DNA of 64,000 nucleotides from Selaginella tamariscina (lineage: Eukaryota; Streptophyta; Lycopodiopsida; Selaginellales; Selaginellaceae): positions 62,001 through 126,000 of the forward strand of contig PUQB01000331.1 in NCBI GenBank assembly GCA_003024785.1, read 5' to 3'. This document shows, in pieces, positions 40,578 to 64,000 of this stretch (its first letter is position 1; each line of letters starts with the position of its first letter). A program made the translations under genes and the position numbers. Below the pieces are notes generated by a model. That model worked only from the letters and a program-made list of their open reading frames with translations, was not told the origin of the DNA and searched no databases.

Positions 40578-43500
40578 TGTCACGACCTAATACAGGATGC
40601 AGGATTCCGGATACAGGATACAGAATACGGGTTACAGGATATGCCTATAGGATATACTTACAAGATATTCCTACAGGATATGCCTATAGGATATGCTACA
40701 TGATATGTCTAAAGGATAAGGGTCACTATTTTAAGCTCATGGCTAGATTAGACTCATGACCAGATTAGCTTGGAGTTGTGAGCATAAAAGCTCCAACCTA
40801 ATTATTGTATAATCAGTTATTATCAACACTAGTCTTTTTACGATCAATCTTGTCTTGTCTTGCTCATTGCGTCCTTCTCTTGTCTTATTCCTAGTTCTTA
40901 GTTCCTGTTCTGCTCCAGTTCCTATCTTGCTCCATGTCCTGCTCCTTGTTTTGCTTCTGAGTCAAGCTTCCTTGTTCTCGGAATCCTGTTCACTTCCTTG
41001 TTCCTAGATTGTGACTTGACAGTTTGATAGTAACTGCTTTCATAACTCTTCGATTCCCAACTACCTTTTTTTCTCTCTCTTGTTTTCCTCCTTCGTTTTT
41101 CCTCTTCTTTTTCCTTTCATAGATCATGGCCGATTTTGAGTACTTTCAACGGGAGCACCAAATGTTTCTTCACGAGTTGGCCACTTTGCGCCAAGTGGTT
41201 ACAGATCTGCAAGGTTCCACCAACGCAGTGCATGCAGCTGCTGATGCATCCTCCAAGGCTGCTGGCAGGCTCTCTCTCAAGCATCTGTGCTTTCCTTTCC
41301 ATCGAACTCTTCTTCGGAGTCGAAGATCAGCATGCTAGAAAAGTTCAGTGACAATCGCACCGATTTTCAAGGTTTCCTGAATCAGATCCGGCTCTTAATT
41401 CGCATGCAACCACGCCACTACTCACAAAAGGTTGGCCTTTTGGCATCTTTACTAATTGGATCTCCATGGGCTTGGGTTGCCCCCTTGCTGGAGCGTGACA
41501 ACCCATTAATAGAAGACTTTGAAGGTTTCGTGACTACCTTTGAAGCCTGCTTTAGGGATCTCGATAAGTACCGTTCCGCATGCACGAAGTTATGAAAGCT
41601 CACATAAGGATCTCGACCAGCTTTTGTCTATGCATTCGAATTTCAGTAACTTTGCACGAACATTCCATGGGACGAGACTGCATTGATCGAACACTTCCGT
41701 TTTGGGTTGAGGGATGACGTGAAGGACCTTATCCTTACGTTACCGGATGCCCAAATATTAGCGGAGATCATGCAACAGGCCATTCGGTGCGACAACTGTT
41801 TGTTCGAGCGTCGTTAGGAAAGATCCCGTCAGCAGTTCTTACAAGCCAATCCTACAGCTATGGTACATGTTCCTGTAACACCTTCTGAAGTAGTTCGTAT
41901 GGAGGTTGAGAAATGCAAGGGTGGCTCACTTTCCACAACTGAGAAGCAACGTCGTCAAAGTGAAAACCTATGCTTGTATTGTGGTGAAGCAGGACACAAG
42001 GTGGCGGAATGTCCTGTTAAAACCAAGAAGTTCAAGACGTGTGAAGTTGAAGCTGAAGTTCAATCAGAAAACTTCTATGTCCACTTTGTCTAGGAGCTGC
42101 GAAGTTGGACGTAGGTGCAGGCTTTATTGGTGCTGCTCATACCATTCCATCACTCAAGTTTCCTGTACACATTCGTCTCAATAATCGAGACTCAAAGAGT
42201 TTGCCCTGTTAGACACTAGTGCAAATGCATGCTTCATGGATGACACTTTTGCAACTCAGCATGGCATTCCGGTGGTGAAGTTGAAGCATGCAATTCCTGT
42301 AGAGGTGGCCGATGGTCGTCTGATTGCTTCTGGCGCAGTTACCCATGCTACCACACTTCTCTCTTGCAGTCATGGCACATTCAACTATTCGATTTTCTTC
42401 AACTTATCAAGACTCGGTCGACTCCCATCATTTTGGGCATGCCATGGTTCGTGGTTGTAAATCCTCATATCAACTGGAGATCTAGGACGTTCACGTTTTC
42501 CTCTCCGGTAGCCAGGATCAATCTTGTACCTTCCTGCGTGCAGGATACGTCCTTAGTGTCTAAGGTAGTACAAGCTACAGATTGACTGTGCCTATTCCTG
42601 TATCAGTGTTGAAATCCTCCTCGACAGGATTCACCTCATGTCAGTTCCTCAGCACATCCGCAGGCTCTCTCACTTGTAAGTTTGCGGATTCCTGTACAGG
42701 GTTCTTCCAATCCTGTATCATCTTCAACAGGATCCACCTCCTGTTGGTTCGTCAGCACACTCACAGGCTCTCCTCACTCCTGTGCATCCACGGACTTCTG
42801 TACAGGATTCTTCCAATCCTATACACTTGTCAACATCCACACATGTTTCTCCCAATCCTGCCTCTTTTCGTTACTCTGCTTCTGTTCCACCCCCCAAGAT
42901 CCTTCCTCTTTTTCAATCACAGCTCCCTCCTTCTCCTCTCCGAGTTCTTACCACTACCATGCATGAACTTGCCACTGATCCTGCTCCTTTTCATCTTTTT
43001 GCCTTCCAAGTAACTCCTACGTCCTCTTCTCTATTTCCTATTTGACTCCCCTGTTTTTCAATCTCCTTCTCCTATTCTCTTCTCCTCCTTCTTCCCTGCC
43101 ATCCAAGTATCACTCCTTTCAGGACGTTTTTGACAAGCACAAGGCTACATTCTTCCTGTTCACAGGTCCTACGACTGTCTATCGATCTTGTGGAAGGAAA
43201 GACTCCACCATTCGGACCGATTTATGCACTGTCACCTACAGAATTGGAGGTTCTTCGTCAGTACATCGAGGAAAACTTGGCATCCAGCTTCATTCATCAC
43301 TCAAAGTCCCTGAGCACCTATCTTCTTTGTCAAGAAGAAAGATGGGAGTTTATTTGGTTGTGGACTACAGAGGTTTGAATCAAGTCACCATTCGGAACCG
43401 GTACCTGTTGCTATTGATCCCAGAACTTCTCGATCGGCTGCGAGGAGCAAAGGTGTTCAAAGATCGACTTACGAGGGGCTTACAATCTTGTACGGATTCG

Positions 43501-46500
43501 TCCAGGCGATGAGTGGAAGACTGCCTTTCGTACAAGGTATGGACACTTTGAGTACACGGTGATGCCTTTCGGACTTACCAATGCGTTTCAACACATGGTG
43601 AACGACATCTTTCGTGACTTCTTGGACTTTGTGGTAATTACTGATGACATTTTGATTTTCTCCAAGGACCAGGCGGCTCATGACTAACATGTACGACTAG
43701 TCCTACAGAGGCTTCGAGCATGGCCTATTGCGAAGTTGGAAAGTGTTTCTTCGACAAGGATACTGTGGAGTTCTTGGCTACATCGTCTCTCCTGCTAGCG
43801 TTTTCATGGACATGCACAAGGTGAAGACTATCGTGGAAGTGGAGAGAGGCCCAAGTTTATGAGACGTACAATGTTTCCTTGGCTTTGCAAACTTCTATAG
43901 GCGTTTCATATAAGACTTCTCCAAGCGTGTACTTCCACTCACGGAACTCACCAAGTGCACAGGAGTGTTCTCTTGGTCCGACAAGGCGGAACATGCATTC
44001 ACAACACTCAAGGACACCTTCAACAGCTCCGATTTTAGCACATCCTGATCCTTTCGTCCTTCTTTGTTGAAGCAGATGCCTCGGATTTTGCAGTAGGATT
44101 GTCCTATCACAAGTTGGAGAAGACAAGTTGCTTCATCCTGTAGCTTTTCACTCTCGTAAGTTCCTTTGGCAGAGATCAATTACGAGATTCATGACAAGGA
44201 ACTCAAGGCCATTGTGGATTCGTTCGAGGAGTGGCGGCATTTCCTAAAGGTGCTGCGCATCCTGTACAAGTTCTTACGGATCACAAGAACCTGGAGTATT
44301 TTCAAACGGCTCGAGTTCTCAGTCGACAGGCTAGGTGGGCGGAGTTCCTATCACGTTTTGATTTTGTCATCATCTACAGGCCTGGTTTTCGGAATGGCAA
44401 GGCAGATGCATTGTCTAGGCGCTCTTACCTTGCACCGACCCCAGGCGATCCTGCATATGACTGTCAAAAGCAAGTGTTGTTGGGTCCTGATCAACTTCGG
44501 TTTGCAGCACTACAAGTTCATTAGGCTCCAACAGATTCACACTCCTACAGGACATCTGTTTGCAGTTGGCTACAACAACTTGGCAAGGAATGCGTTTTCA
44601 CACATTAATCCTGACATCGCAAGTTCCTCTTCCTCCAGTTCCCGTACAAACTACAAGTTGTTTGCCATACAGGACGGACTCCTATACCGGGAAGGTCTCC
44701 TGTACATTCCTGTTGGTGTTTGCAGGACTCGTGTGATACAGGATTGTTATGATACCCCGACTACAGGACATTTTGGTGTGGCCAAGACAGTTGAGTTAGT
44801 GACTCGCAACTATTGGTGGCCTGGGTTGCGAGGTTTTGTGGACAAGTTTGTACGGAGTTGTGACACCTGCAATAGGTCGAAGATGCCTCATCACGCGCCC
44901 TCTGGTCTTCTTGTTCTCTTCCTGTTTCTTCTGCTCCTTGAGATCCATTTCTATGGATTTCCTCACAGATCTTTTCCTTCTCGTGGATTTGATGCAGTTT
45001 TTGTGATGGTTGACCTTTTCACCAAATAGGCTCATTTCCTATCATGTACAAGATTGTTACAGGCCAGACAGCTGCTGAGTTGGTGATCCACGAAATGTTT
45101 CTAACACCATGATTTTCCTGAGAGCATTATTTCTGATCGAGGTCCACAATTCATGTTCAAGTTTTGGTGAGAGCTTCTCTGAAGTCTACAGGTTAAAGCG
45201 GATCTTTCTTAAGGATATCATCCGCAAACTGATAGGTAGTCAAAACGCACAATTCAAACCTTGGAATAATATCTTTGTTGCTTCATCAGTTATCAACAGG
45301 ATAATTGGTTGGACCTTCTTCCTATGGCGGAGTTTGCCTACAACAACTCCGTTCACGCATCTATAAGCCAGACACCTTTCTTGCTCTTATAGGCTACCAT
45401 CATGTTTTGACTTTGCTCCTCCTGCTTCTCCTTCTTCCGCTCCTGTAGTACAGGATCGTCTCTAGCATCTTGTCAGGTACAGGATGATCTCTAAATTCAT
45501 CTTCACAGGCACATGAACGGTATAAACATCATGCTAATGCTCATCATCAGTCAGCACCTGCATATAAGATTGGTGATTCGTGTGGCTTCTTCATTAGCAT
45601 ATTCGCACCAACATGCTTCTTCTAAGCTGGATTTTCAACAATTGGGCCTTACAAAATTGCGGCTGAGGTCAATCCTTTAGCTTTTCGACTAGAGTTACCA
45701 TTACGGTGAAACTTCATCATGTGTTTCACACCTCTTTGTTGGAGCCGTATCATTCTTCTTCTCTTTCTGGTCGTGCTTCTTCTCCTCCCCCCTGTGGTCA
45801 TTGACGGTGAACATGAGTACAAAGTTGTAGCGATTCTTGATTCTCGTCTTCATTGCTGCCAACTTCAATGTTATTTGCCTACTGTCGCACTTGGGAACTT
45901 GCATCCAACTTACTCCATGCTTCTTCCAAAGTTGCTGCTTTCCATCAGCGTTATCCTACTAAACCAAGTCCCAAGACTTGTGGAACTCGTCCTTAGGGAG
46001 AAGGTGTTGTCACGACCCAATATAGGATGCAGGATAAAGAAGAGCTCAAAGATCTCCCACTCCTTAAGCTCAGTAACATCTCTGGAGGCATGGGCTGGGG
46101 GGCGCAACAAGTACGTCAGATACAAGATACAGGATACAGGATACGGGTTACAGGATATGCCTATAGGTTATACCTACAGGATATTCCTATAAGATATATC
46201 TACAGGATATACCTATAGGATATGCCTATAGAATATGCTACAGGATATGCCTATAGGATATGCTACAGGATATGCCTAAAGGATAAGGGTCACTATTTTA
46301 GCTCATGACTAGATTAGACTCATGACCAAATTAGCTTGGAGTTGTGAGCATAAAAGCTCCGACTTAATTGTTGTACAATTAGTTATTATCAACACCAGTC
46401 TTTCTACGATCAATCTTGTCTTGTTTTGCTCCTTGCCTCCTGCTCTTGTCTTGTTCCTGGTTCCTAGTTCTTGTCCTACTCCAGTTTTTGTCCTGCTCCC

Positions 46501-46592: not shown

Positions 46593-47520
46593 AGGGTATG
46601 TGTGAGACATATCTCTTTGGTGAGGTTAAGACATGAGCCTATCTAGGTCTCCTAATACATGACCCAAAAGTCTACTCGAATTACATGCTAAGGTTTGGGG
46701 GATAGTCATTTTAAGAGACTTAGGGTAGGACCCTAAGTCTTGTGTCTATTTTAGGCATCTGAGTCAGGCTTTCAAGATTATTTTGGAAGACTTAGCTTAT
46801 CTCACATAAGAGCTGACATTGAATGGCTAATTGGCAACCACATGTTGGACCTTTGGGTTAAAACTTTAACATCTACACTAAGATACTTGTAAACATTGAC
46901 TTAATGAAATGTCTCTCCTCGATAAATGCAAGTTGTAACTAAAATGGGCATGGCTATAGTCCCATTTCCTAATAATTAGCAATTTTAGCTATTTAATTAG
47001 CATTTTCTAATATTAAAGAAATATTCTTTAGAATATATGTTTGAAAAGAGAATATTCTTTAGAATATTCTATTTTGTATTCTACCCTTTAATAAATTATA
47101 GCATTCATTGAACAAAAATTAATAACATTATAAAAGTAGAAGGTATTAAATTATATAATATATTGCCTAATATAACAATTAAGGAAGAGCATAAGAGGTA
47201 CATTATATAAATATTGATGTTGTTATTAAAATATTAATATTTAAATATAATATTATTAATTAAAAATTTGTAGTAGATAATATATATATAAAATCCTATA
47301 ATAATATAGTCAATCTTCCATATCATTTTTTAAATTTATATAGTTAAGTATACAATTTGGTACTATTATTAAAAGTTTATAATAATTATGAATATTAAAT
47401 ATATGATATTTTATAATTTTGTAATTGCTTTAAGCTTCAGAAAACATACATTCCCTTGCAGTTTTGTTAATCGTGACTTTATCAACGCTTCTTGACATCC
47501 ACCCATATCGAATGGATTTA
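46593..47520. other. Spacer without a recognised gene
   Basis: Mixed sequence to about 46960, then very AT-rich to 47430, including agaatattc motifs also seen near 52270-52750 and 61680-61730. It separates the retroelement from the divergent gene pair. A boundary of the proposed composite element may lie here, but no terminal repeat was recognised. Confidence 0.4.
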
Positions 47521-47524
47521 ACAT

Positions 47525-50500
47525 TTATAAAACATGCTGGGTCTTTTGATTGGGAGACCATGTTTTCTCTAGGCATCCATTATATCTTTCGCTCTCCTTC
47601 TCGTGTCGCCTTTTTTGTGGTTTGAACCATGCAACCTTAACAATACTATTTTTTGTGATTACTTCAGGTGTGTCGATAATTTGACCCATCCAAATAGGCT
47701 GATTATATGACGCATCTGGAGTAATGAGAACCATCATTAGTTTTTGAAGATCCTTGCAGCAATCAAAGTATGCTTTAGGTTTTGGTTCCTTTGTCCAACA
47801 AAGTGTGGGGTTTGCACTTCCACATCACTACTGGCTTCTATGTCATCTATGCTCAGTGATGTCATTTCAATCTCCTCTCGCCACCTTGTTTTAGGCCAGA
47901 AAGGGTGTTGCAATTCTGTACTTGTGACAGTAGGCCCTTCCAACTCTCGAACAACAGTCTCCCAATAGTTGACCACATGCTTATATAGTTCTGAGTAACC
48001 AGTTGCCTTATCAGAATTCTTTGGCATCGATTTTTGAACCCATGCCACATATTTTTTGATGCCATCAATAATAACCTCTTGTTCCTTGAGCTGGGCACTC
48101 AATGGAATAGGGTCTGGTTGTCCTTCTGGGAGAAGTGGCTTTCCATCCTCTCCACTTTTGAAGAGCATTAAGCCTCTTTCGGTAACCACTCCTGCTCTGA
48201 TGGCCGTAACTTGTACTGCATAATAGGTATACCATCTCGTATGGAGAAAAAGAATTGTAGCGGCACAAGGTGACCAACTAAAGAATCACTCCCTTCTTTT
48301 ATATACTCCTTGAGAAATTTTTTGAAGTCTGGCACCTCAGTCACAAGCAAAGCACAACTTTTTTTGGAGATGCAATTTTCAAAAAGATTCATCATATGCG
48401 GTAAGGTAAGTGCACTTGTCCTTTTTGTAGAGTTGGAGACCTTGCTGAAGAACGCATCAATATCTTCATGAGTGTGACCAACCATAAGGAAACTGAGCGT
48501 GATTGTTTCAAACACACCTTTGGCAACAAGCATTGACAAGTATGCTAGCACATATCTAGAAAATAAAAGTAAGTATGAGCTTGAGAAACCCTTAAGTAAA
48601 ATGATTTACCTATTTTTGTTCTCGCCTGCACAATTATCCATCTGTAAAAGCAAATGACGAGGAAGCTTATTTGATGTTGAGGACACATGTACACTATTTG
48701 AGCTAGATCCCTCCACTGAACCAGAACTCTCAACAGGGCCATTTGTTTTTTGTGCAGGTTGCTGACAATGCCTCTCATATTCCCAAGTAGCCTCAAGTGC
48801 AGATGTGTTCATGAGAGCATTATGTAAAGGTTGAAGATGTTGTTTCTTCACTTTGAGATCACTGATAGGACTTGTCTGTGAGTGGGCTTCAAGGTTTCTG
48901 AAACACATGGCTAACGACCCAATAGTGAAATTGGAGTCGCTAGACCAATGTGGAAGTGAAAAGTGTCCATATGACTCACAACCGTGTCCATGTGTTAGCA
49001 CACCTGTCAATGAAATCTGAAGTTTCATGACATTTCCAAGGCACTTTGGTGTTGCAAAGAGCTTTGGAATGCTGGTCTTTGAATGATCCATCTTGTCATG
49101 GATCAAGCACAGGTACTCTGATGGGCGTGACACAGAAAGCATGCGGTGTGTCATAGTACTGAGACCGGCAAGTTTGTTGTGCATCATGTGGGCCTCCATC
49201 TTCCTTTGAATGGTAGTGATCTCCACCAAGGTTTTTGCACAAGCCTCTGCAGCCTTCAATGATGTACAAGTGTCACACTTAGAAAAGCTAGAGTGTTTTG
49301 CAATCTCCACATCCTTAAAATGAGTATTCCATATGTTGTTGAAGGTACCAGTGCAGATTGCTTGGAGCCCCATCAAACTGAGGCACTTGTTCACATGTTC
49401 ACACAGTTTCAATTGAGTGTAGATTGAAGGTAAAACCTTGAGATTTTCCCTGACCCCTGCATTTGTGGTTCGGCATTTGTGAGGCATCCTGTCTGCATTT
49501 GCTTCCACAAAAGCCTTGAGTATCTCTATGGCTGCCATGATGTGAGAGCGGGTTTTGACCAAGCCAGTGTTCCCATGAACTGAGGTTCGCGCTCCATCTA
49601 GCCACTCATCCCTCCGACGGTAGAACGTGGTCTTTGGGATCCCGTATATACTGTACCAAGCTTTGAAGCAGATGGCCACCTTATTAAATACCATGGATGT
49701 ACTCTGATAACCTGTGTCCGAGGCCATTCCATCAATACACCCAGTTAGTGCAGCATATACAAACTCATGCCTTTGCTTTTGGGTGAGCATACGAAAGACA
49801 TGTCTACATTGGGTAATTTCATTCCGGTCTGCCATCTGACAACACTTCTTCTTGCAACAGTCAATCGTGGAAATGCTCGTAACACTTTCGGAAGATGTAG
49901 GATCCATCTTTACCCTCTTGCTGAAACTTGCAGGGGAAGATCTACAACCCATGAATCGCCTTTTTCTTACAATAGGACCAATGCAAGGAACCTCTTCAAA
50001 TATGAGTTGTTCTTCCGGGTTGTTATTATTGAAATCCAACCCAGAATATGTTGAACCATCTTGCCGTCTTAATTCAGATGTTCGCCACCTCACGAGGGAT
50101 CCAGGATACAATGTGCCATTAGGTGAAACCTCTGTCACAACTACACCCACGAAGTCGGACCCTAGTTTCTCTTCTGACACTGCTTCCATTGGATTTATAG
50201 CTGTGATGATGCCTCTTCCGACTTCAATCTCACGAAGAAAGAGAATCACCTCATCCATCACAGCAGGCAAGCCATCATCTGGTAAACTCGTGCTACTATT
50301 TGTTTGTGACTCTGCATATTCTGTGTCAGCCTTGACTTCATCCAAATTCCACAATACAGGAGAACCCTCCTCAAATTCCATTCCCAGAACCTCAACATGC
50401 TTGTAAATGGTGTTCACCCATACGTACACACAAGATCCTTGGGCAATATTGTGACATGATGCATTATTATCTCGAACTTCCACAGTTCCAGTGCCAACTA

Positions 50501-50552
50501 TCTCGTTGTTCCGAAGAAGACATACTTTATCTCCAGTATTAAACATATTGTC
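47525..50552 (-). CDS. Putative transposase-like protein with DUF7869-like RNase H fold
   Basis: Two exons are clear: 48610-50552 and 47525-48555, joined by GT-AG sites. The first ATG is 50546 (MFNTGDKVCLLRNNEIVGTG). Residues 1-75 look like the small beta-rich domain of plant transposase-associated proteins. A second beta-rich block follows (REIEVGRGIITAI). Next come CCKKKCCQ, an HTH-like IPKTTFYRRRDEW, a zinc pair FSKCDTCTSL and an RNase-H-like core with acidic residues in LIHDKMDHSK (about 484), LLLQMDNCAGENKN (about 635) and VGHTHEDIDAFFS (about 675). The last two motifs are typical of DUF7869 proteins, widely regarded as transposon-related. The C-terminus has another beta-rich block (QPIWMGQIIDTP). 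Two homopolymer-sized shifts, near 48182 and 47742, break an otherwise long frame. The array of palindromes lies in its probable first intron. Confidence 0.7.
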
Positions 50553-50700
50553 CTGCACATAAATAATTGTATTATTTATGATATCTGTTTATGCAATATT
50601 TCTAAGAAATCTGAATTACGGTTACTTAATAATATGCATATGCAATAATACATAATTATGTTTAGAGATAATATCTCATGTTTGATTAATACAACTGATG

Positions 50701-51540
50701 GGCGGGATTAATCCCGCCCACGAATCCCTCCGACGAGGAACGGTCGGCGGGATTAATCCCGCCGCCGACTCAACCCCTTCGGAGAGAGTCGGCGGGATTA
50801 ATCCCGCCTTGGACTCCCTCCGACAAGGAAGAGCCGGCGGGATTAATCCCGCCGCCTCTTCCTCCTCGGGGAGTCCGGCGGGATTAATCCCGCCGACTCT
50901 CTCCGACGAGGAAGGTCGGCGGGATTAATCCCGCCGCCGACTCAACCCCTTCGGAGAGAGTCGGCGGGATTAATCCCGCCTTGGACTCCCTCCGACAAGG
51001 AAGAGCCGGCGGGATTAATCCCGCCGCCTCTTCCTCCTCGGGGGAGTCCGGCGGGATTAATCCCGCCGACTCTCTCTCGCCGGAGAGAGGGGCGGGATTA
51101 ATCCCGCCGGACTCCCTCGCGAGGAGAGGCGGCGGGATTAATCCCGCCTCCCCGGAGGGAGTCCAAGGCGGGATTAATCCCGCCCACAATTCTTACGACG
51201 GGGAATGGGTGGCGGGATTAAACCCGCACATAACTCTCTCCAAAACTATGATTTCAAAGAGATCTCGGGATAAATCCTGTCCCCAAATCTTTAAAACAGG
51301 GTGGTGGCGAGATTAATCCCGCCACCCCTTCCCTGCCTCCTAAAATGGTTGGCGGGATTAATCCCGCCGACAACTCTTTCTAATAAATTCTGGTAACTCT
51401 TCATCAGTTGAGAAGGTTATCGGGATTAATCCCGCCACTCTTTTTCAGTGGCGGAGAAGCATTGCCCGGAGATGGTGGCGGGATTAATCCCGCCACTCTT
51501 CGAAGAGGCGAAAAAGAAATGGCCGGATTAATCCCGCCGC
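50701..51540. repeat. Palindrome array 1: about 18 copies of GGCGGGATTAATCCCGCC
   Basis: Copies start at 50701, 50746, 50791, 50836, 50877, 50918, 50963, 51008, 51050, 51091, 51131 and 51167; degenerate copies follow at about 51211, 51306, 51351, 51419, 51477 and 51522. The 18-bp unit is a perfect palindrome. Spacing is about 41-46 bp at the conserved end. Spacers are GC-rich, differ from each other, and themselves contain complementary arms (GACTC...GAGTC, TCCGACG and so on). A block of about 172 bp (50746-50917) is repeated almost exactly at 50918-51090. Copies decay toward 51540. The array lies between a likely leader exon donor (51707) and the acceptor of the first coding exon (50553) of the DUF7869-like gene, hence probably intronic. 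Confidence 0.95.
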
Positions 51541-51707
51541 CCCGGTTAACCTAGAATATTAAGTTAAAAGGATATTTAAACGGATAAATCCCTAACGGAA
51601 TATATTATAATCCTAATGCATTCCTAAACCCCTAAATTGTAATTTTAAGAGAGAATGTAAGAGAGTGAATCTTTATAAGTATTTTTAAATTTGTTTATAA
51701 TACTTAC

Positions 51708-51890
51708 TTGTAAACAGCACTGAAGGCGCCGTGCTTTCCTATAAAGAATAGCACCCAATTTAATCTCGCTCCTGAGATGATCACTATGAAGAAAAAAGAA
51801 GATCTAAAGAGTGAAAAATACAGAAATGAAGAAACCCTTGCCGGAGAAAGAACCAGATCTGAATTTGAGTGGGAAATTAAATGCATTTTC
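51708..51890 (-). other. Probable 5' leader exon of the DUF7869-like gene
   Basis: The minus strand reads a plant-like leader (agggtttcttcatttctg) and ends with ACAA followed by a perfect GTAAGT donor at 51702-51707. The nearest good acceptor is TGTGCAG at 50553, giving an intron of about 1150 bp that holds palindrome array 1. The exon is open but has no convincing coding content; its upstream limit is a guess. Confidence 0.45.
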
Positions 51891-52239
51891 AAATTTACAT
51901 GTCAGACCGACAATACATATGTCAGAAATTCAAATTTTTTAAAAAGAACAGAAAATAAAATTTAAGATGAGTTGACACAAATATCCGACACTCTGACATA
52001 TATACTCTCCAGTTCCAATGAGTATTTTAAAATTGCATTTAATGTTATTCAAGTGATTCAAGCTGTTTAATATTACGAAATTTTAGACTATATTCTACAT
52101 TCTTAGTATTCAAGTATATATATTATATATATATATATAATATATACTTATACAATAAATAAATTGATATATTATTATGTATCATTTAAAATATATTCAT
52201 AGTCTGTTTATTATTATTATTTTCTTAATTACTCGAGTA

Positions 52240-52866
52240 TTTAGTTTTCATTTCCTAGTATCAATGGGATATTCTTTAATATTTTTAATATTTGAAGAAT
52301 ATTCTAATATTAAACCTGATTATCATAATTAAATTAGTCTTGTTCTTAATTATTGCAGTAATTATTCTACATTTGTATATATTAATGGGATTTTCTCAAT
52401 TAATTTGTTATTATTTCAAGAATATTCATGTGTTAAACCTTATTATCAATATTAAATTAATACACACTATGAACATATTTTAAATTATACATAATAATAC
52501 ATCATTTTATCTAATATATAGTCATATATAGTTTTAATAATATATATATTAATATCATTTCCTTAATTACTTGAGTAATTAATCTTCTTTATATTAATGG
52601 GATATTCTTTATTATTTTCTTATTATTCCAAGAATATTCCAATATTAAACATGATTATGATAATTAATTTAGTTAATTATTTGAGTACTTAATTTACATT
52701 TGTATATATTAATGGGATTTTCTCAATTAATTTCTTATTATTTCAAGAATATTTCAATGTTAAACCTTTTTATCAATATTAAATTAATATATATTATTAA
52801 AACTATATATGGCTATATATTAGATAAAATCATATATTATTATGTATAATTTAAAATATGTTCCTA
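52240..52866. repeat. Diverged tandem and inverted AT-rich repeats
   Basis: A block with ttaatgggatattctt, aagaatattc and ttaaacctgattat occurs several times between 52240 and 52800. Separately, about 75 bp around taatacatcattttatctaatatatag at 52478-52557 is repeated in inverted form at 52785-52862, giving a possible large stem-loop. Confidence 0.6.
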
Positions 52867-53132
52867 GTGTGTTTATTAATATTATTTTTTAATTATTCGA
52901 TGTTTGTTTTGCACACATATATAAACACAATCATAAATTTACACACGCATTACAAGAACTTACAAAAACACATATGCACACACATGCACAACCCTAAACC
53001 AAACTGAAGAAATATGTTGCTTCTTTATTGAAAACATCATGTTCAACGCATGTATGATATATGTACTCAATCTGTGTGTATGTAACACATTGAATTTACA
53101 TGTGTAATATTTATATTAAGCTTGTTGGGAGC

Positions 53133-53160
53133 AAACCCTAAACCCTAAACCCTAAACCCT
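53133..53160. repeat. Interstitial telomere-type repeat (AAACCCT)n
   Basis: Four units of the plant telomere sequence. Similar runs occur at 53225-53250 and, less perfectly, 53653-53683. They recur as part of a longer diverged repeat, so they are more likely promoter boxes or an amplified motif than a healed chromosome end. Confidence 0.85.
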
Positions 53161-54000
53161 GTGTATACATGTGTGTACAAAAATAATTTTTCAACACTCT
53201 CTCTTCACACCATGCATGATCCATCCTAAACCCTAAACCCTAAACCCTAATATGTAACACAATGAATTTACTCATGTAATATGTATGTATGTCTGTGTGT
53301 ATACACGTGTGCATGTATATATGTGTACTTTCTCTGTCTTCTCTCATACATACACACCATGCATGATCCATGTTAATATGTACTGTCTCTCTTCTCTCAA
53401 ACATACACACCATGCATGATCTATAATATGTACTCGGTCTCTAATATTATGTACTAATATGTATGTATGTCTGTGTGATAATACACACCATGCATGATCC
53501 ATAATATGTACTGTCTCTCTTCTCTCATATACTATGTATGTATATCTGTGTATAATATGTGTAAGTATATGTGTACTAATATATGCAATGTGTACAAAAA
53601 TAATTTTTCAACACTCTCTCTTCTCTCATACATACACACCATGCATGATCCATCCTAAATCCAAAACCCTAAACCCTAAACCCATGTAATATGTATGTAT
53701 GTCTGGTGTATACACGTGTGTATGTATATATTATGTGTATTAATATATGCAATGTGTATGTATGTATTGATACACAAAACTTTAACACTCTCATGGACAC
53801 ACACATGTTAAATCCCTGCATGATTTATATTTTGGGGTGTATGTGATACCCACGCACACGCACGCGCTAATAATATAATAAAGAATATTCGTTTAGGGCG
53901 TCTATATTTTATTCTTTTTAGGGTTTAAGTATATTCTCAGAAGGAATATTCTATTAGGGTTAATATATATATTTAATTCCTTTAGGGTTTAGGTATATTC

Positions 54001-54055
54001 TTAGGGTTTCAAGAGGCGGCGGCTGTGAAATCGGCGGCGGCGGCTGTGCACACAG
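54001..54055 (+). other. Probable 5' leader exon of the ParB/methyltransferase-like gene
   Basis: A GC-rich stretch (gaggcggcggctgtgaaatc and so on) after repeated tagggttt motifs ends in CACACAG followed by a GTGAGA donor at 54056. The first good acceptor before the coding sequence is TTTGCAG at 57026, so the intron of about 3 kb would contain the microsatellite field and palindrome array 2. Inferred from splice signals only. Confidence 0.4.
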
Positions 54056-54059
54056 GTGA

Positions 54060-54363
54060 GATCTGTGTGTGTGTGTGTGTGTGTATGTGTGTAGTATGTA
54101 TAATGTATAGGAGTGTGCGTATAAATTTATTTATTAGTTTTATCTCTCGCACACACACGCACACTCCTGTGTATGTATATGTGTGTGTGGGTGTGTGTTT
54201 GTTTATCTGTATGATTTTATTTGTTTCGCTCACACACGCATACACACGATATACATATACACATATATATATATACCTATATATATACATACATATATTA
54301 TGTGTACCAGTATCTGTAAATTTTTTTTTATTGATCTATCTCTCCCACACACACGCACACTGC

Positions 54364-54419
<56 letters not shown>

Positions 54420-55055
54420 ATCAATGCATATTAACAAATAGTATACAACACTAGTTTATATATATGCTTATATATTCATATGGGTTATATATCTATATAC
54501 ACACATATATATATGTGTGTGTTTATCTGTATAATTTTATTTATTTATTAGTTTTATCTCTCGCACACACACGCACACTCCTGTGTATGTATATGTGTGT
54601 GTGTGTGTGTGTGTTTGTTTATCTGTATGATTTTATTTGTTTCGCTCACACACGCATACACACAATATACATATACACATATATATACCTATATACATAT
54701 ATACATACATACAACACTAGTTTATATATATGCTTATATATTCACAGACTCTCTCTCTTTCTCTATGGATTATATATCTATATACACACATATATATGTG
54801 TGTGTTTATCTGTATAATTTTATTTATTTATTAGTTTTATCTTTCGCACACACACGCACACTCCTGTGTATATATATGTGTGTGTGTGTGTTTGTTTATC
54901 TGTATGATTTTATTTGTTTCGCTCACACGCATACACACGATATACATATACACACATAATATACCTATGTACACACATATATTATGTGTACCAGTACTGT
55001 ATAATTTTATTTATTTATCTATCTCTTGCACACACACGTACACTCCTATACATAC

Positions 55056-55088
<33 letters not shown>

Positions 55089-55160
55089 CACACACATATA
55101 TATATGTGTGTGTTTTTATCTGTATAATTTTTTTATTTATTAATTTTATCTCTCGCACAC
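54060..55160. repeat. Microsatellite field, (GT)n, (CA)n, (TA)n in about four repeated blocks
   Basis: Blocks of roughly 250-300 bp repeat the order (GT)n, gtttatctgtatgatttta, tctcgcacacacacgcacactcctg, (TA)n. Copies begin near 54065, 54190, 54510 and 54800 and are partly nested. The long frames here read only CVCVCV and IYIYIY and are not genes. Confidence 0.85.
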
Positions 55161-55178
55161 ACGCTAAGCCCCTCGAGC

Positions 55179-56733
55179 GGCGGGATTAATCCCGCCGCTA
55201 TAGGTTTATGGCCTCGGCGGCGGGATTAATCCCGCCGCCGAGGCCCTTCACGCAGGCTATGGGCGGCGGGATTAATCCCGCCGCTCTACGACAAACCGAA
55301 GAGCGGCGGGATTAATCCCGCCGCCCATGGCCTGCGTGAGGGGCCTCGGCGGCGGGATTAATCCCGCCGCTCACCCATGCCCTGCGCGGAATGCGGCGGG
55401 ATTTATCTCGCCGGCAATGGCCTGTGTGAAGGCCCTAATGGGCGGGATTAATCCCGCCGGATTCCGCGCAGGGCATTTACAGGGGATGGGCGGCGGGATT
55501 AATCCCGCCGCTCATGAGGCTAACCGAAGAGCCTGCATGAAAGATCCTGCACGGAAGGCTAACCGAAGAGCCTGCATGACATGTCCTGCGCGTAAGGCGG
55601 CGGGATTAATCCCGCCGCCCAGGGAATTCACGCAGGACATGAACGGCGGGATTAATCCGGCCCCACGCTCATGCCCTTCGCGGAGGGCGGCGGGATTAAT
55701 CCCGCCGCTCAGGCACTTCCGCAGGATATAAGCGGCGGGATTAATCCCGCCCCCACCCATCCCTGTTGTTCAAAATGCCGCAGCCAATATATATGTGTGA
55801 GCGCATGATTTACGAGAGGGCGGCGGATTAGTCTCTCCGAACCTTCATTACCCGGTGGCGGGATTAATCCTCCATTGGTATGTTGAATCAATCCCGACTA
55901 ACTCTGTCTGAGACGGAGAAGGTTTACAAAATACCAATGGAGGGAACTGAGAAGGGTGGTGGGATTAATTTCACCATCCCTTACATGGTGGGCGGGATTA
56001 ATCCCGCCGCGTACGCATGCCCTGCGCGGAATCGGGCGGGATTTATCCCGCCGCCATTGGCCTTCCTGAAGGGCCTAGGCGGCGGGATTAATCCCGCAAG
56101 ATTTCGCACAGGGCATTGGCGTTCGGCGGGATTAATCCCGCCGACTAAGGCCTGAGTGAAGGGCCTGGGACGCGGGATTAATCTCGCCGCGTACGCATGC
56201 CCTGCGCGGAATCGGGCGGGATTTATCCCGCCGCCATTGGCCTGCCTGAAGTGCCTAGGCGGCGGGATTAATCCCGCCCGGTTCCGCGCAGGGAATTGGC
56301 GTCCGGCGGGATTAATCCCGCCGCATAGGGAGAGTGAAGGCCCTGGGCGGCGGGATTAATCCCGCCGAGTCTTCAATGCCTGTTGGAGGAATGAATCCCG
56401 CCACCCTTCCTTTGTTTTCTCCATTGGTGAGTCGGACCAATCCCAAACGTTTCTGTCTGAGACGTAGAAGGTTTTCAACATACCAATGGAGAGAATTGGG
56501 AAGGGTGGGGAAATTCATTTAACCATCACTTACATGGTGGGCGAGATTAATCCCGCCCCCTTTCTGGAGTCACTGAAGGGGTGTGAGAAATAAATCCTGC
56601 CCAGTTCTCTCTGAACCGAGAAGGGTGGCAAGATTAATTCCGCACTCCCGTTCAAGGCCTCCAGAAAGGTGGCGAGATTAATCCCGCCCACTCTTTCAGG
56701 AGGCATTGAAGGGGTGGCGAGATTAATCCCGCC
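55179..56733. repeat. Palindrome array 2: about 29 copies of GGCGGGATTAATCCCGCC and variants
   Basis: Exact or near-exact copies start at 55179, 55219, 55264, 55305, 55351, 55395, 55441, 55492, 55599, 55645, 55689, 55734, 55991, 56035, 56081, 56125, 56171, 56215, 56261, 56305 and 56349; degenerate ones continue at about 55857, 55960, 56390 and 56541-56733. Spacers are not those of array 1; they carry catgccctgcgcggaat, cctgcgtgaggg and their complements. A block of about 180 bp (55991-56170) is repeated at 56171-56350, and one of about 130 bp (55880-56008) recurs at 56420-56557. Variants often read GATTTATC or change CCCGCC to CTCGCC. The array precedes the acceptor at 57026, so it is probably within the first intron. 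Confidence 0.95.
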
Positions 56734-56839
56734 GCACCTTCCATGTGAATATATATGTGTATTAGTATATATAAGTTGCATATCTCATTTTATTTACTTT
56801 TATCAATATTTCGAGTAAAAGCTAGGAATCTATGTAAAA

Positions 56840-56922
56840 CTGTCCAGAGCTCACATTTGTGGTGGTTCTAAAACGAAATGTTATCTTTCTTTTGCACTAA
56901 CACAAATGTGAGCTTCGGACAG
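56840..56922. repeat. Inverted repeat (stem-loop), 22-bp arms
   Basis: Arms at 56840-56861 and 56901-56922 (CTGTCCagAGCTCACATTTG side) match at 20 of 22 positions around a 39-base loop. It lies between array 2 and the first coding exon of the ParB/methyltransferase-like gene. It could be a small transposon remnant or an RNA hairpin in the intron. Confidence 0.75.
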
Positions 56923-57026
56923 TTAATTACGTCTACTTCTCTCTGTGTATTATTTTTGTATATTCGGGTTTATACAAGTGTGTGTGCGTTTTTATATAAT
57001 TTTATTTATAGTGTATTATTTTGCAG

Positions 57027-60000
57027 AAGGACGATTTGATCAAACAAGGAGATCGAGTCATTAGTATGGAGTCGTCGTCAAATTCTGGGTAAGAATTAAA
57101 ATAAACTGTTATACTCGGATACTTGAACTAATCATTTTTGTATTCAGATGTGGAATTGAGGTGACATTAAAGACAAGAGCAGGAGAAGAGATGGGCAGGG
57201 GGATTCTGGAATCAACTTGGCCATATTTTAAGATAAATGGGAAGCGCATTGGAGCAACCATGGCTGCTGTCAAATTAACCTCTGTCACATCTCATGGACA
57301 AGCAAAACAATGGAAAGTAGATTCGCTAGTCAAGCACCCGAAAGCAGGCTGCGAACCCAGATTGGACGATGCTCGACACATATGCCTTGTTCCATCCAAT
57401 GTCACGTTCTCGGATCCAGAGGTCGTCAGTTACAACATTAATTTCGGGTGGTTTTGTCGACTTGTGGATAATGACGTTCACGTGTTCACTAATGATGTTG
57501 ACCTTGGAGTTCTTCTTCAACTCAACGAAAGCCCATCTATGGAGGGGATCCATCTGGATGTCTACTTCGAAAATCTTCAGACTCATCGAGTAGGTGTATT
57601 GTCAGGAGATATTGCTTCACAATACAGAAAATCAGCAAGTGGAGCAATCGTCCCTCTTCACATTGAAGAAGAACAACAGCGACATCATAATGGAGATTGA
57701 GAGGGTGGCTCGGTCTCAGGTTCTCTACAGATCACGTTCAATTTGCTTAGGGAGCTTTGGGAGCTGGAAGAGTGTACCGAGAACACTAGAACAGCTGCAG
57801 TCGGGGATCACACATGTTGATTCGGATCGCAAAAGAAAATCATCAATCGTTTTGTCAGCTGCACCTGTGGCATCTCATGCTGCAATAAGTCACAAGGAAA
57901 TGATGTTGGATGATAAGATTTATCCTTGTAGGGTTAAATATTGCAGCGTCAACCCAAACTTCAATTACAGGCCACTCAACCAGGAACGTGTAGCTGAGCT
58001 CATGGAGAAGATGAAGGACGACAATTCTTATACCGTTCCACATAATGCTGTTTTGTGTCCATACTATGAAAGAAGGAAGGGCGCTGACAAAGTCTGGATC
58101 ACAACACCAGAACAACTCATGAAGATTCAGACGGAGAATAAAAAATCTATCAAGTACTACATCATTAGTGGCCAGCACACAATAACGGCAGCCCAACGAC
58201 TTCTCGAGGAACACAACAAAGGAACGATGGCAACAAAACTTTCCGAGCATACCCGTGAGAAGCTGACAAAAAGATCGGCGTTTTTAGCTAAGCCGAATCT
58301 CACAATCGAGCAGTACCATAAGTTATCGGCGGAATGGGACGCTGCCGACACCAACCACTACAACAGCAAAATATGGGAGAAGTTTAAACACACGCGAGCC
58401 GTGTGGGAATCTCTTCAGCGACCACAAAGAGCTACCGCAGGGAATACACAATCTGCGGAATACCGGGTAAGCAAATTGTTTGGGCGGGATTTATCTCGCC
58501 GGTATATTAATCTGTCTTTTTCCTCAGAGAGTTGAAGAAATTGCAGCAGTTGATTTTGCCCAGGTGGGCGGGAAGGAAACATCCTTTCTGATGATGTTGA
58601 TTTCTTGCCCCGAAGATAGATCTTTGCCAAATGGTTGGGGATTATGGAATCCTTTTCAAAAGGAACACTGAAGAAGAAGCAGACAAGTGAAGGGGAGCCC
58701 TCAGAAAAGTCTGCAAAGAAACCCAGTAAGACGCCGAAGGCTAAGTCTGTTCAATCTACAAAGGATGTAGACAACGATTTCAAGCTCACATGGTTGAAGC
58801 CTTTAAATGGAACAACGATGGAGGAGATGGAAGTCTTGGCTGATTTGGTGATCGATGGCAAACTACAAATTAATAACAGCAGCCCAACCTCTCCTTTTCA
58901 TCTCAAGGCAATGGAGTTGAAGACGGTCAGGCATTTCAAGGAGTGGTTGGGAATACACTGCCACAAACTGGGTTGGACCTCGACTTCAACATATGAAGAG
59001 GTCAGCAAATATTTGCATGTGACGAACGATGATATGCTTGTCGAATGGGTGAACCAATCGGAAGATCTGGGCAAGAATCTATTGCACGCCAACGCCAAAA
59101 AGGAGAACATTGGGATGACGCCTTCTCTTATGGCAGTCCTTCAGCAGCGGAGAACCGAATTGAACCTTATAAAGGAGGATGCTACAAATCACGACAAGCC
59201 CTACAGATGTTTGTTGTTAGATTCGGAGACTTTATGGGGTAACATCACTGCTTGTAGGAAACCGTTTCAATTGTTCGTGATGGATCGGCGGGTGTCAAAA
59301 AATCTTTCGACAGATAGGGCACTAGAGGATCTGGTGGAGAAACTTAGCCGTGCAAGCATATACATAGAAGGTATTTATTATTGAATTCATGCTTGCGCTC
59401 TTCACTGATACCTACTTTTTCAGGTATTTATTTCTTGATTCTTGCTCATGTCACCGATACTTTTGCCTTCGCCTTCGCCAAGAAGAATAGAATACATCGT
59501 TGGACAGGATTTTATATGAACGATGCTAATCCCAAGTGCATTGATACCGTTGTTCACTTGGTTGTTAGGAATGCGCCAAACAATTTCAAGCTTCCAAATG
59601 ACTGGCCAGGCATCTGTTTGCACTCCAACGGCCCTGAACCTCCATCCGATACACCGATAGGTATGAGTGACGTATTCGACAATGTACGTTATCCAAACAT
59701 TACAAGTCAAGCGGCACGGAGCATCGTCAACTTGATTAGGGGTCCTCACAGTGATGCGTGGGTTTTTGACTACTGCACTAGGGGGTCCGTCTTGAAGGAG
59801 TGTTACCTTCGGCATACATGTGTGTTTGCCGTTGAAAAGGATAAGACCATGGTTGAGGACCTGAACAAGTGGATAGATTGGGTCTCAACTGAGTACCCCA
59901 ACGATTCCATAAAGGCGTATTTGAGAAAGTTCCCTCCAGATAAGTGCGATAGCTCTGAAGGTGAATCTGGTTCAATCTCGGAGTCTGAGAACGAACTTCA

Positions 60001-60172
60001 ATCAGATATTAGACCGGAAGTTATCTCGAGGAGTACAGAACATTCGCACACTCCAGGACCCATGGAAACATCAATAGAAGATGCAGAAGATCTTGAACCA
60101 TCTCACAAGCGGCTTAGACCTTCTTCGCCTCACTCAGAAGGTAATAGCGAAGAAGAATTGATAATGAATTGA
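57027..60172 (+). CDS. Composite protein: beta-rich domain, ParB-like domain, DNA-methyltransferase-like fold
   Basis: Exons with GT-AG borders: 57027-57088, 57148-58466, 58528-59370 and 59424-60172; first ATG 57066 (MESSSNSG). The N-terminal block (EVTLKTRAGEEMGRGILEST, MAAVKLTSVT) resembles the GRGI block of the divergent gene. A ParB-like domain follows at about 57930-58230 (VKYCSVNPNF, RPLNQERVAELMEKMKDD, IKYYIISGQHTITAAQRLLE). After a lysine-rich linker comes a beta-class methyltransferase-like layout: LFVMDRRVS where DPPY is expected (about 59278), a FLILAHVTDTFAFAFA segment, then PNITSQAARSIVNLIRG and VFDYCTRGSVLKECYL, HTCVFAVEKD where DPFxGSGT...GIE is usual. Catalytic motifs are altered, so enzyme activity is doubtful. 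An acidic tail ends at TGA 60170. About three phase shifts occur (57650-57700, and 58575-58625). Confidence 0.6.
58483..58500. repeat. Single palindrome copy inside an internal intron
   Basis: The 61-bp intron 58467-58527 of the ParB/methyltransferase-like gene contains GGCGGGATTTATCTCGCC, a variant that also occurs in array 2. It takes up about a third of the intron and is the only copy outside the two arrays that I found. Confidence 0.85.
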
Positions 60173-60283
60173 TAGAGTGACGAATAGTTGTAAATGAGTG
60201 TAACATAAGGCATTTTTGTATATTTCTTTTATATTTGTACAGAAAATAAATTCTCAAGGATTAATGAAGCTTTTAGTTCAAAC

Positions 60284-61602
60284 ATGGGTCACACATTAAC
60301 AAGGTAAATAATATACCTTGATAATTTTAAGGTCAGCTAATTATCATTTTGCAGATGTAATGAAATAATTGAGAACATGGATTTTCAGCATTGCCATGAG
60401 GTAAGAGAGGGGTTTGGCGACAATTTCTTGTGCCACATGTCAGAATGACAGAGTTCATGCAGGAAATGGATAATAATGCAGCTCAAAACATCGTTACCAT
60501 GGGGGCCACTTCATCATCATTTTTATTGGCTTCAGTTCCGAAATCAATTTCTTCAGCGCATGCAATATCTGAATCTTGTAAGGATGATGTACAATTAAAT
60601 GATGAAGGGATAGGCAACGAGATAGTGGCAACGGATAAATGTGAAAGGGAGCAAACAAGTGATTTGCAAAGTATTCAAGAGGCAACGCATCTCATGTTAC
60701 TCATGGCCATATTGTGTTGTTGGATGTCAATGGTGTTCTGCTTCATCGACAAAGGCCCCAGGATAGAAAAAAGAAATCAAACAAGGAGATTTCATTCCTT
60801 GTCATGGTAAATTTCGATATGATATTATTTTTCGTCCAGGGTTGGATCGTCTCTTTCAAAAGCTTAAGGAGATGGGTGCGCTTGTGGGGATTTGGTCATG
60901 CATGCAGATTCATAACTTAACACCGCTGTTGAGTTTACTTAAGAAACATTGTAGTGTTGCAGAAGAGGTGATTCGTAAAGATTGGATTTTTGACCAGCGA
61001 ATGTGTCATAAACCTCTCGAATTTCACAATATAAGAAAGGAAAGCAAGCCATACTTCTTCAAGAATGAAAGAATAATTGGGACTCATGGGGAGATCAGTC
61101 GCTTAAGGATAATGCACAGATGTTAGTAGTAGACGACTCTCCTCAGAAGGCTATGCTCAACCAAAACATTGCTTGTATTCATCCAATCACTTTCGATCCA
61201 TATTCTGATACCGATATCATGGATGAGCTAGTGAACTACTTGGATACGTGCCTCAGAAAGAAGAATCTCGAAAATTTTTGTGAGCAGTATCCACCGTATC
61301 ATACATTTCCTGAAGCTTTTCTTTCTCGTGATATTGAATTTTATAAAATGAAGGATAGCAACCGGGCGCTTTATAATATTATTCTTAAGGAACGTCAGTT
61401 TTTAGATGAGCCTTTATGCAGACCTTCTCTTATCACATCTTATGTATTAACAAGGATGGCAACTCCCAATTGCATTCGTGAGAGTGTTAAGTGGTGGCAA
61501 CAACATCAAGATATTGACCAAAATGATTTGATTAATCCGGAGAGTGATGATTTAGACAAAATGAAAAGATTTCTTTGTATGATAGAAAGAAAGTATTTAT
61601 AA
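60284..61602 (+). CDS. HAD-family, NIF/FCP1-like phosphatase domain protein
   Basis: Exons begin at 60284 (MGHTLTR, donor at 60304) and 60355. The HAD core shows motif I LLDVNGVLLHRQ (near 60714), then GLDRLFQKLKEMGALVGIWS with the motif II serine, KPYFFKN, and motif III/IV MLVVDDSPQKAMLNQNIACI near 61118. That pattern, with VDDSPxK, is typical of FCP1/NLI-interacting-factor phosphatases, which dephosphorylate proteins such as the RNA polymerase II tail; plants have many uncharacterised members. The usual DxDxT is DVNGV here, so the second Asp is replaced and activity is uncertain. A C-terminal region of about 150 residues (CEQYPPYHTFPEAFLSRDIE) has no recognised domain. Around four phase shifts appear. 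It starts 110 bp after the ParB/methyltransferase-like gene on the same strand, so it may share its transcript or element. Confidence 0.65.
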
Positions 61603-64000
61603 AAAATTAACATGTTGATAAGAAAATGATTTCATTTGTAATTATGTTTGATAGTATTTCTTCATTATTGTAAACTATTTTTAGAATAATATGAATATTC
61701 TAAGATATTTTAGGAATATTCCTTACTAAGTAAGGTTATTGAAGGATTAATTAATTAATTAATTAATATTTAAGGCTTAATTACATATTAATTAAATGAT
61801 TAATTAATAATTAAAACTTAAGTATTAATTAGTAATTTATTTTATATTCCCATTTTCACGTATCATGCCACTTTAGTTACAACGTGCATATAAGATGGAT
61901 TTACACACATATTTTGTTGTAATTATTTACGAACTCTTGAGGTACACAATATGAATTACAAATCCTCATGTACAATTTGGACCATATTATTAGTGTTGTC
62001 TCTGCACATCATGGAGAAACTTATAGATGTTAGTACTATTTTGTTACCTTATTTAGTAGGCAAAACAAGCACCCACACACACATGTGATATACATGCATG
62101 CATACACACACACACATGTTTATTTAGTTACCACATTCTAGAGGATATATTATAATGAAGATGGTTTTGATGCATTGAAACTCTTGCATTTAAAGGAAAT
62201 GAAATCATAAAGGTGATTCATTTAGTATATAATAATTTGATATTTACTTTCATTCATGAAAAAAACTAATATTGTTATACAAATAACCTCTTTATTTAAG
62301 TTTAAACACCATGTGTATGTGTTTGTTTTCATGATATTTACTTTATAACAATGCTTAACATGAATAATTTATATAATATATTTAATTTTCATAATTTTAC
62401 ACTATATTCATTATATACATTACCATAATTGGTTACTCTTCTCATGACTACCTTGAATGGTTACTCTCCTCAAAATCAACAAATGTTTGTGTGTGGGTTG
62501 TTAGAAAAACTCACACATGACAACTCACATATACTCATTCAAAAAACCACTAAACCCTTGCATGGTTAATCTCTTCATAACCACCAAATCTTTTATATGG
62601 TTTCTCTATGTCTCTATGTGGATTTTCTAAACAAACCATACACATGAACTCACACATACTCCCAAAAACCACACAATAAAATTGACCATTGCATATATCA
62701 TAAACCACATGTTAAAACATTTGAAAAGCCATTAAAATGACCATTTGCTATGTCATATCAAAAACAATATGTTTTACCCATGTGGTGACTTTAATGATTA
62801 GTCTTTTCATGATCACCAGATGTTTTGTATGTATTTTTTTTTCTTAAAAAATCACACTCGCTGCTCCTTATGTAAGTTCTTGAAGTATTCTATTTCTTTT
62901 CAAATAACACGTTTAAATTTTACAAAGAGTTTTTAGTCTTGAAATCTATAATTCTTCAGAACAACACTTGCTTAGTAAATGGGTGTGGGTTATGAACTAT
63001 AATGTGAAAAGTAGAACTCAAAAGGCAACTTTCATATTGCATACCCAAGTTACTTTACGTTATGTTTTTTCCAAGTTCACATTTGCCTAGATTACTCTAC
63101 CTTATCTTTGTGTAGGTTAATTTACCATACACTTTTACAAAACATGGCAAGTTAGTTTGTGTTGTCTTACAAAACTAAGTCTTATAACGTGGATCATGTG
63201 ATATGTTAAGTCTACACATTATTATAAAATTTTTTTTCTGTCTTTTCTTTAAGGTGTATGAAACTAAAATAATACATGCTTTAAAAAATTGACAATATCC
63301 GTTGAGTTTTGGCTTAGGCGAAGGTTCAATGTTAATTTTGACAATGATGTTTAAATGAGGAAAGGTTTATGTTTAAATGTGGATCTTTGACTTCGGATAA
63401 AGAGACATGTTAAACATAAGAATGAACGATATAGTCTCGCCTTCTAGTAAGTCCATCATTGTCTCTTTGACATAGTAAAACATCTTATTATCGGAATAAT
63501 TATCTGGTGTTAATCTTATGGTACAACGAAAAGTTGAGTATTAGCATATCATGAATATGTTAATAAGATTGTTCAAAGTTAATAATGTAGTCTAAATATT
63601 ATTTAATATTCATAGTATTTCAATAATGCTAGTTATAAGTAGCATTAGGTTGAATAGTTTACTAATTCAAATCCCTTGATTTGGACAACTATAACATAAA
63701 ACCTTAATTAGTTGTAAGAGCGCACTTTGTGTTTAATGTTAATTAATACAACTAACTTGAATATGGTTTATGTTTTATGTGGGATCATGTGAAAAACTAA
63801 GTCATAATAACTTATTGCAATAGAGGGATTTAAGATTACATTCCTATTGGTGCAATTTAGAAGTAAATGGCATGATATACCAAAATGGAAGTGTTTAAAA
63901 CATACATTTACATTTCTAGTTTATTGAGTATAGGAGGACTTACATAGTGAAGGCATTTAGTGCACATTTGTTCATTTCATTACTAACTCCTTAAGCTTAA
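61603..64000. other. AT-rich spacer with diverged tandem repeats
   Basis: No gene seen. A (TTAA)n run lies at 61745-61770. Three diverged copies of a unit built on ggttactcttctcatgaccacc and caaatgtttgtgtg lie at about 62430-62545, 62560-62665 and 62785-62870. The right boundary of the proposed composite element was not recognised. Confidence 0.45.

Follow-up and report, generated by a model that had tools for sequence, protein, structure and literature searches.

An 18-bp palindrome arrayed upstream of two divergent genes in a high-copy DNA transposon of Selaginella tamariscina

A 64,000-nucleotide stretch of the Selaginella tamariscina genome (contig PUQB01000331.1, positions 62,001 to 126,000; hereafter the window) carries two arrays of the 18-bp palindrome GGCGGGATTAATCCCGCC. 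These arrays are internal parts of a DNA transposon of about 15 kb that has terminal inverted repeats (TIRs) and is present in high copy number, with many copies still very similar to one another. The observation is real and more general than an earlier account of this locus (the sequence-only reading) had described, in that it concerns a high-copy transposon family with palindrome arrays on the promoter side of its genes. We see roughly even chances that the arrays serve as cooperative sites for an element-encoded dimeric protein governing the promoters of the element or its silencing. As far as our searches reach, the transposon family appears to be new.

Palindrome arrays within a high-copy transposon

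With up to three mismatches, the palindrome matches the window at 45 places, 29 of them exactly, and no match is expected from 100 dinucleotide shuffles. Allowing four mismatches gives 47 sites, comprising 18 in array 1 (50701-51538), 28 in array 2 (55179-56733), and a lone palindrome-like site (58483-58500) in an intron of the plus-strand gene that is identical in six other aligned copies; none of these features is assigned a strand. The sequence-only reading had reported about 47 perfect copies, a total that stands although 18 of the sites are variants. It correctly placed the arrays about 3.6 kb apart (3.64 kb) and correctly described GC-rich palindromes in AT-rich DNA, with a guanine-plus-cytosine (GC) content of 0.58 in the arrays and 0.28 between them. 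However, it had the arrays flanking the gene pair. The arrangement is the reverse, with one array just on the upstream side of each divergent gene: array 1 is 155 bp from the ATG of a gene on the minus strand that matches the family DUF7869, and array 2 is about 330 bp from the ATG of the gene on the plus strand. Between them is an AT-rich, microsatellite-rich centre (51539-55178; no strand), which includes short runs of CCCTAAA, the plant-type telomere repeat, at 53136-53156, 53231-53244, and 53667-53680; such runs would point to the green lineage.

The most common unit lengths are 45, 44, and 46 bp, which account for 78, 62, and 36 of the spacings counted, respectively. Near-identical palindromes alternate with divergent spacers of 22-28 bp. 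Mean identity within an array is 0.96 (array 1) and 0.91 (array 2) for the palindromes compared to 0.56 and 0.55 for the spacers, whose shuffled counterparts reach 0.48 and 0.49. This agrees with the earlier statement that the palindrome is conserved while the spacers differ.

The arrays sit in a repeat whose boundaries coincide across many copies. In the window, ATAA is found at both 46922-46925 and 61910-61913 (a target-site duplication, without strand), and therefore the element spans 46926-61909, or 14,984 bp. It starts with the left TIR ATGCAAGTTGTAACTAAAATGGGCATG (46926-46952, plus strand) and finishes with the inverted repeat ATGCACGTTGTAACTAAAGTGGGCATG. The right TIR of the window copy, ATGCACGTTGTAACTAAAGTGGCATG as read on the minus strand (61884-61909), has one G fewer than the other copies shown. 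The termini read ATGCA[A/C]GTTG. Genome-wide, the TIR pattern of about 26 bp with up to two mismatches occurs at 2,113 and 2,012 places, whereas a reversed control yields none. Because these amount to 4,125 ends, we estimate about 2,000 copies of the element, a count in which solo ends are included. Identical 4-bp flanks are present in 8 of 15 end-paired copies, compared to a shuffled mean of 0.73, and none of 20,000 shuffles reaches eight. The remaining seven copies may have been rearranged or mutated. The duplications are mostly but not exclusively AT-rich (for example, CGTT and TGGT). Long matching pieces of element copies are 81-99% identical.

The sequence-only reading had also confined the motif, within the window, to this locus. 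This holds, with the motif limited there to the arrays and one intron, but the 300.7-Mb genome (1,391 contigs) contains 46,888 occurrences with at most one mismatch and none of the reversed control. To compare with the window, we used a sample of twenty 10-kb stretches, most of which surround the first 100 listed copies of the 18-mer and some of which are neighbours. All 264 palindromes in this sample (up to three mismatches) belong to element copies: 258 lie no more than 1.8 kb from non-array sequence of the element, six are inside such sequence, and none is elsewhere. Three of the 20 stretches lack an element match of at least 200 bp, and these also lack the palindrome. A dispersed satellite without genes is therefore not borne out in the sampled stretches, where every palindrome lies in a copy of the gene-bearing element.

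Several other placements of the element and the motif were encountered. A 6.7-kb derivative (L072; C84:1341-8060) has two left-type TIRs and retains array 1 together with the DUF7869 gene; it is without array 2, the plus-strand genes, and the normal right end, and the arms of its palindromes are worn while ATTAAT is intact at 14 of 14 sites. At C2:142-182 kb (L042-L045), several element copies are clustered and apparently inserted in or beside each other. A viral contig from IMG/VR (L071, positions 146-163) carries one exact 18-mer and no array. The viral contigs yielded no relatives of the DUF7869 protein or of the plus-strand protein, and a viral origin was rejected on that ground. The sole literature occurrence found for GGGATTAATCCC concerns invadopodia.

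Variation within the sites and turnover of the arrays

Array sizes differ among copies, ranging from 9 to 19 sites for array 1 (10 arrays) and from 6 to 28 sites for array 2 (seven arrays), with some arrays clipped by the ends of the stretches. A 17-site array in L042 that could be assigned to neither type is left out of these ranges and of the wobble sums below. Spacer families keep their order between copies and mostly their orientation, and blocks have been duplicated and folded back. With the stretches oriented, similar spacer pairs number 39 direct and 13 inverted within loci, and 538 direct and 37 inverted between loci; these supersede a count made on unoriented stretches (347 direct, 280 inverted).

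Among 215 distinct site contexts, the bases of the central ATTAAT are as a group the least variable. Positions 7, 8, 11, and 12 vary six times in total and positions 9 and 10 vary 12 times, compared to 5-32 times per position in the GC arms. The greatest variability is found at positions that include 3-5 and 14-16, which hold the GCGGG/CCCGC core, and end bases 1 and 18. Position 8 (position 11 on the other strand) has only 78 single variants genome-wide against 46,888 sites. About 2,200 would be expected if variants were spread evenly over the 18 positions, an estimate that assumes the sample share of one-mismatch sites (98/235) for the whole genome. Transitions at CpG are no more common per site than others (10.5 and 10.25).

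Across all 13 rows of aligned arrays, changes are less frequent in palindromes than in spacers, with 47/1818 versus 374/3300 positions in array 1 and 55/1979 versus 237/4171 in array 2. Array 2 of L042 runs opposite (palindrome 27/360, spacer 27/714). Seven of the 13 rows were selected for good registration, leaving out L034, L035, L040, and L042 for array 1 and L042 and L045 for array 2; pooling them gives 18/1889 for palindromes versus 127/3834 for spacers, and the difference holds for GC and AT bases alike. By side, the pooled palindrome changes are 1/774 and 17/1115. Over the long term, the contrast of palindromes with spacers is upheld; it could reflect selection or local homogenisation.

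Genes encoded by the element

The gene downstream of array 1 (47528-50546, minus strand; ATG near 50546, 3ˊ end uncertain) has DUF7869 (PF25273) as its sole Pfam family above the cut-off, with E-values of 2.5e-12 in the large exon and 1.2e-27 in the next. A single intron was placed by eye at approximately 48552-48608. Five relatives with 27-35% identity are present in the protein collection. Conserved blocks are IHDKMD, LQMDNC, and GHTHEDID, and in the window, the motifs on the minus strand are IHDKMD (49086-49103), LQMDNC (48630-48647), and GHTHEDIDAFFS (48444-48479). Cysteines in CC..CC and C..C arrangements are invariant among six aligned DUF7869 proteins. A structure model of the relative P0006 has a mean predicted local distance difference test score (pLDDT) of 48, with low confidence in the core. 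These blocks, the cysteine pairs, and the strand order of the P0006 model would fit an RNase-H-like transposase. A literature search on the name DUF7869 returned no paper. At the 44 places scored with P0006, the open frames run to 948-1,092 codons when a single TAA is read through, a stop that we take to lie within the unspliced intron, as it does in the window. Two of them (C80 and C84) fall inside TIR-paired copies of the family found in the window.

The gene downstream of array 2 (57066-60172, plus strand) was spliced by eye into four exons encoding about 976 amino acids, and we refer to its product as the orphan protein. Two frame breaks in the window copy are absent from the six other copies aligned at each place. 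By eye, the protein has a ParB-like GQHT motif (58155-58202, YYIISGQHTITAAQRL) and a methyltransferase-like tail (59759-59842, WVFDYCTRGSVLKECYLRHTCVFAVEKD), for which profile and fold searches give no support; for ParB, these cover Pfam, NCBIfam, PHROGs, and PDB, and sequence comparison gives none either. Near the right end of the element is an open reading frame (ORF) resembling FCP1/NIF phosphatases (PF03031; 60400-61602, plus strand; E-value 1.5e-7 in copy L044), which is possibly a passenger and perhaps a captured host gene. The ratio of nonsynonymous to synonymous polymorphism (pN/pS) among copies is 0.22 and 0.10 for two exons of the plus-strand gene and 0.35 for the DUF7869 exon, compared to 0.51 for noncoding DNA read as code. 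The last exon of the plus-strand gene (0.48) and the phosphatase-like ORF (0.93) look unconstrained, and signs of constraint are therefore confined to the DUF7869 exon and the first two plus-strand exons tested. Elsewhere in the window, a sequence resembling a Ty3/gypsy retrotransposon was noted by eye at 17406-22848 and 40578-46039, with matches of about 85-89% in L041 and L044.

Possible functions of the arrays

Binding sites for a locus-encoded protein, one of the roles offered by the sequence-only reading, remain the best reading of the arrays. The anatomy supports such a docking function, and a binding protein, its binding, and an effect on methylation are inferred. The 18-bp palindrome would be bound by a dimeric DNA-binding protein of the element, for which the candidates are the orphan protein and the DNA-binding part of the transposase. 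With numerous sites spaced 44-46 bp apart, the element's non-coding DNA would be recognised in a manner that depends on site density, and the bound protein would set the expression of both divergent genes. The most likely route would be to keep the promoters open against host silencing, as VANC proteins do, with autoregulation as the alternative. This reading is supported because the arrays precede both genes and a further site lies in an intron, as for VANC21 motifs, and because the palindromes are near-identical while the spacers are little more alike than when shuffled. Additional support comes from the differences in array size and order, the predominant spacings, the scarcity of position-8 variants, the coding constraint, and the confinement of the 264 sampled sites to the element.

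The nearest working analogue would be the VANDAL/VANC system of Arabidopsis. VANDAL elements carry a Mutator-type transposase, whereas the transposase-like gene here belongs to DUF7869. Both systems place a private short motif densely in the non-coding DNA of the element, before a gene and in an intron. In VANDAL21, VANC21 motifs are densely packed into non-coding DNA, both ahead of VANA21 and within the introns of VANC21 and VANB21, and reside in fast-changing tandem repeats whose arrays quickly gain and lose units (PMC5735166). VANC induces a loss of methylation (PMC5735166, PMC10398659). However, the VANC21 motif is a 9-mer in one orientation rather than a perfect palindrome of 18 bp. The orphan protein matches no Pfam family above the cut-off, and no relation to VANC was found in searches that included no VANC sequence.

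Other systems share single features with the element. Bacterial ParB proteins act at parS sites, which are clustered palindromes of about this length, and here palindrome clusters stand beside a gene with a ParB-like motif; the parS-like role raised by the sequence-only reading would rest on that motif as read by eye. CACTA elements (En/Spm, Tam1) have multiple subterminal TNPA sites for an element-encoded binder and a 3-bp target-site duplication. Multiple sites for such a binder may be a common feature, and the DUF7869 relatives P0006 and P0010 have a weak, below-cut-off similarity to Transposase_23 (TNP1/EN/SPM; E-values of 0.0007 and 0.003). In contrast, the present element lacks CACTA ends and has a 4-bp duplication, and the suggested comparison with subterminal TNPA sites fails because the arrays lie far from the element ends (3.8 kb for array 1 and 5.2 kb for array 2). 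Sola2 transposons have short TIRs and 4-bp target-site duplications (PMC3627910); by description these are common to both, whereas the duplications here, with CGTT and TGGT among them, are not exclusively AT-rich.

A bolder version of the docking-site reading, which we hold to be rather unlikely, is that a DUF7869-type transposon independently evolved sequence-specific anti-silencing or self-recognition. The orphan protein would then protect about 2,000 copies by binding the promoter arrays; it might be a pseudo-enzyme of ParB/methyltransferase-like type, loading at the palindromes and spreading.

Several results weigh against binding by an element-encoded dimer. The symmetric per-position variability of the sites (r 0.92) was dropped as a sign of dimer binding because a palindrome yields symmetry under strand-symmetric mutation. 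Flanking noncoding DNA of recent copies changes at 8/1535 and 22/1198 positions, and the palindromes are not clearly slower; therefore misregistration may account for part of the spacer rate, and purifying selection of recent date is not demonstrated. Spacer CpG (0.72 and 0.64 versus 0.36-0.74 elsewhere) is not enriched, and therefore leaves no footprint of hypomethylation. To these can be added the unconstrained look of the last plus-strand exon and the phosphatase-like ORF. Homologue searches with the orphan protein found none, and it has no recognised domain and no Pfam family above the cut-off. A single-sequence model of its middle domain (mean pLDDT 42) is too poor to use, and a PDB fold search with that model gave nothing at an E-value of 0.001 or below (best 0.52, which is meaningless). 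Finally, a sister family carrying another palindrome did not turn up among the 44 of 6,894 candidates scored in the P0006 search, whose scores were nearly equal.

The sites might instead be bound by the transposase for synapsis or to restrain transposition rather than to control genes, in the manner of piggyBac/piggyBat, whose palindromes are held by a dimer of a zinc-binding domain. The piggyBac target is TTAA. The left end of piggyBat has three imperfect-palindrome sites about 44 bp apart, the first of which is gripped in the structure by two cysteine-rich domains (PMC11707139). The invariant cysteines of the DUF7869 proteins and the 4-bp duplication are in keeping with such a role. However, the sites of piggyBac and piggyBat are terminal and few, whereas the arrays are far from the ends, their site numbers seem to exceed greatly what a transpososome would need, and the L072 derivative retains array 1 without array 2 or a normal right end. 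We consider this explanation unlikely. The same holds for the idea that the arrays are a passive, functionless minisatellite, rich in GC, in which recombination or template switching at the palindrome has caused homogenisation, a view favoured by the variable array size and order, the duplicated and folded-back blocks, and the resemblance of recent palindrome rates to those of flanks. Homogenisation of only 18 bp while 22-28-bp spacers diverge is hard to obtain, one motif is retained in two arrays and an intron, and position 8 appears nearly fixed genome-wide.

It is quite improbable that the element has captured sites for a host factor (E2F/DP-like or homeodomain/GARP-like) that activates it. 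The arrays do occupy promoter positions, and GGCGGGA resembles an E2F half-site, as the sequence-only reading proposed. E2F sites have a conserved GCGG/CCGC core, and this reading is disfavoured because the corresponding core is variable here while the ATTAAT group is least variable; in addition, all 264 sampled sites are within the element. RNA hairpins in transcripts, also proposed earlier, we regard as scarcely credible. By sequence, each unit could form a stem of 7 bp around a UUAA loop, but none of 36 distinct double variants is compensated, and transitions that keep or break wobble pairs are even in each array (21 and 21; 34 and 35; hand sums). The lack of compensated doubles, together with 61 G>A versus 63 C>T changes, argues for a role as DNA rather than RNA. 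Likewise, no Rfam family reaches its gathering threshold in 46900-62000.

The DUF7869 protein is now linked to a gene content, defined termini, and a 4-bp target duplication. If the palindromes are docking sites, they would represent a second, unrelated case of the VANDAL/VANC logic, in which a transposon uses a dense, private motif to tag its own promoters. In that event, the palindrome and its cognate protein might offer a new sequence-specific epigenome tool, and the roughly 2,000 copies and 46,888 sites would make the evolution of transposon self-recognition testable.

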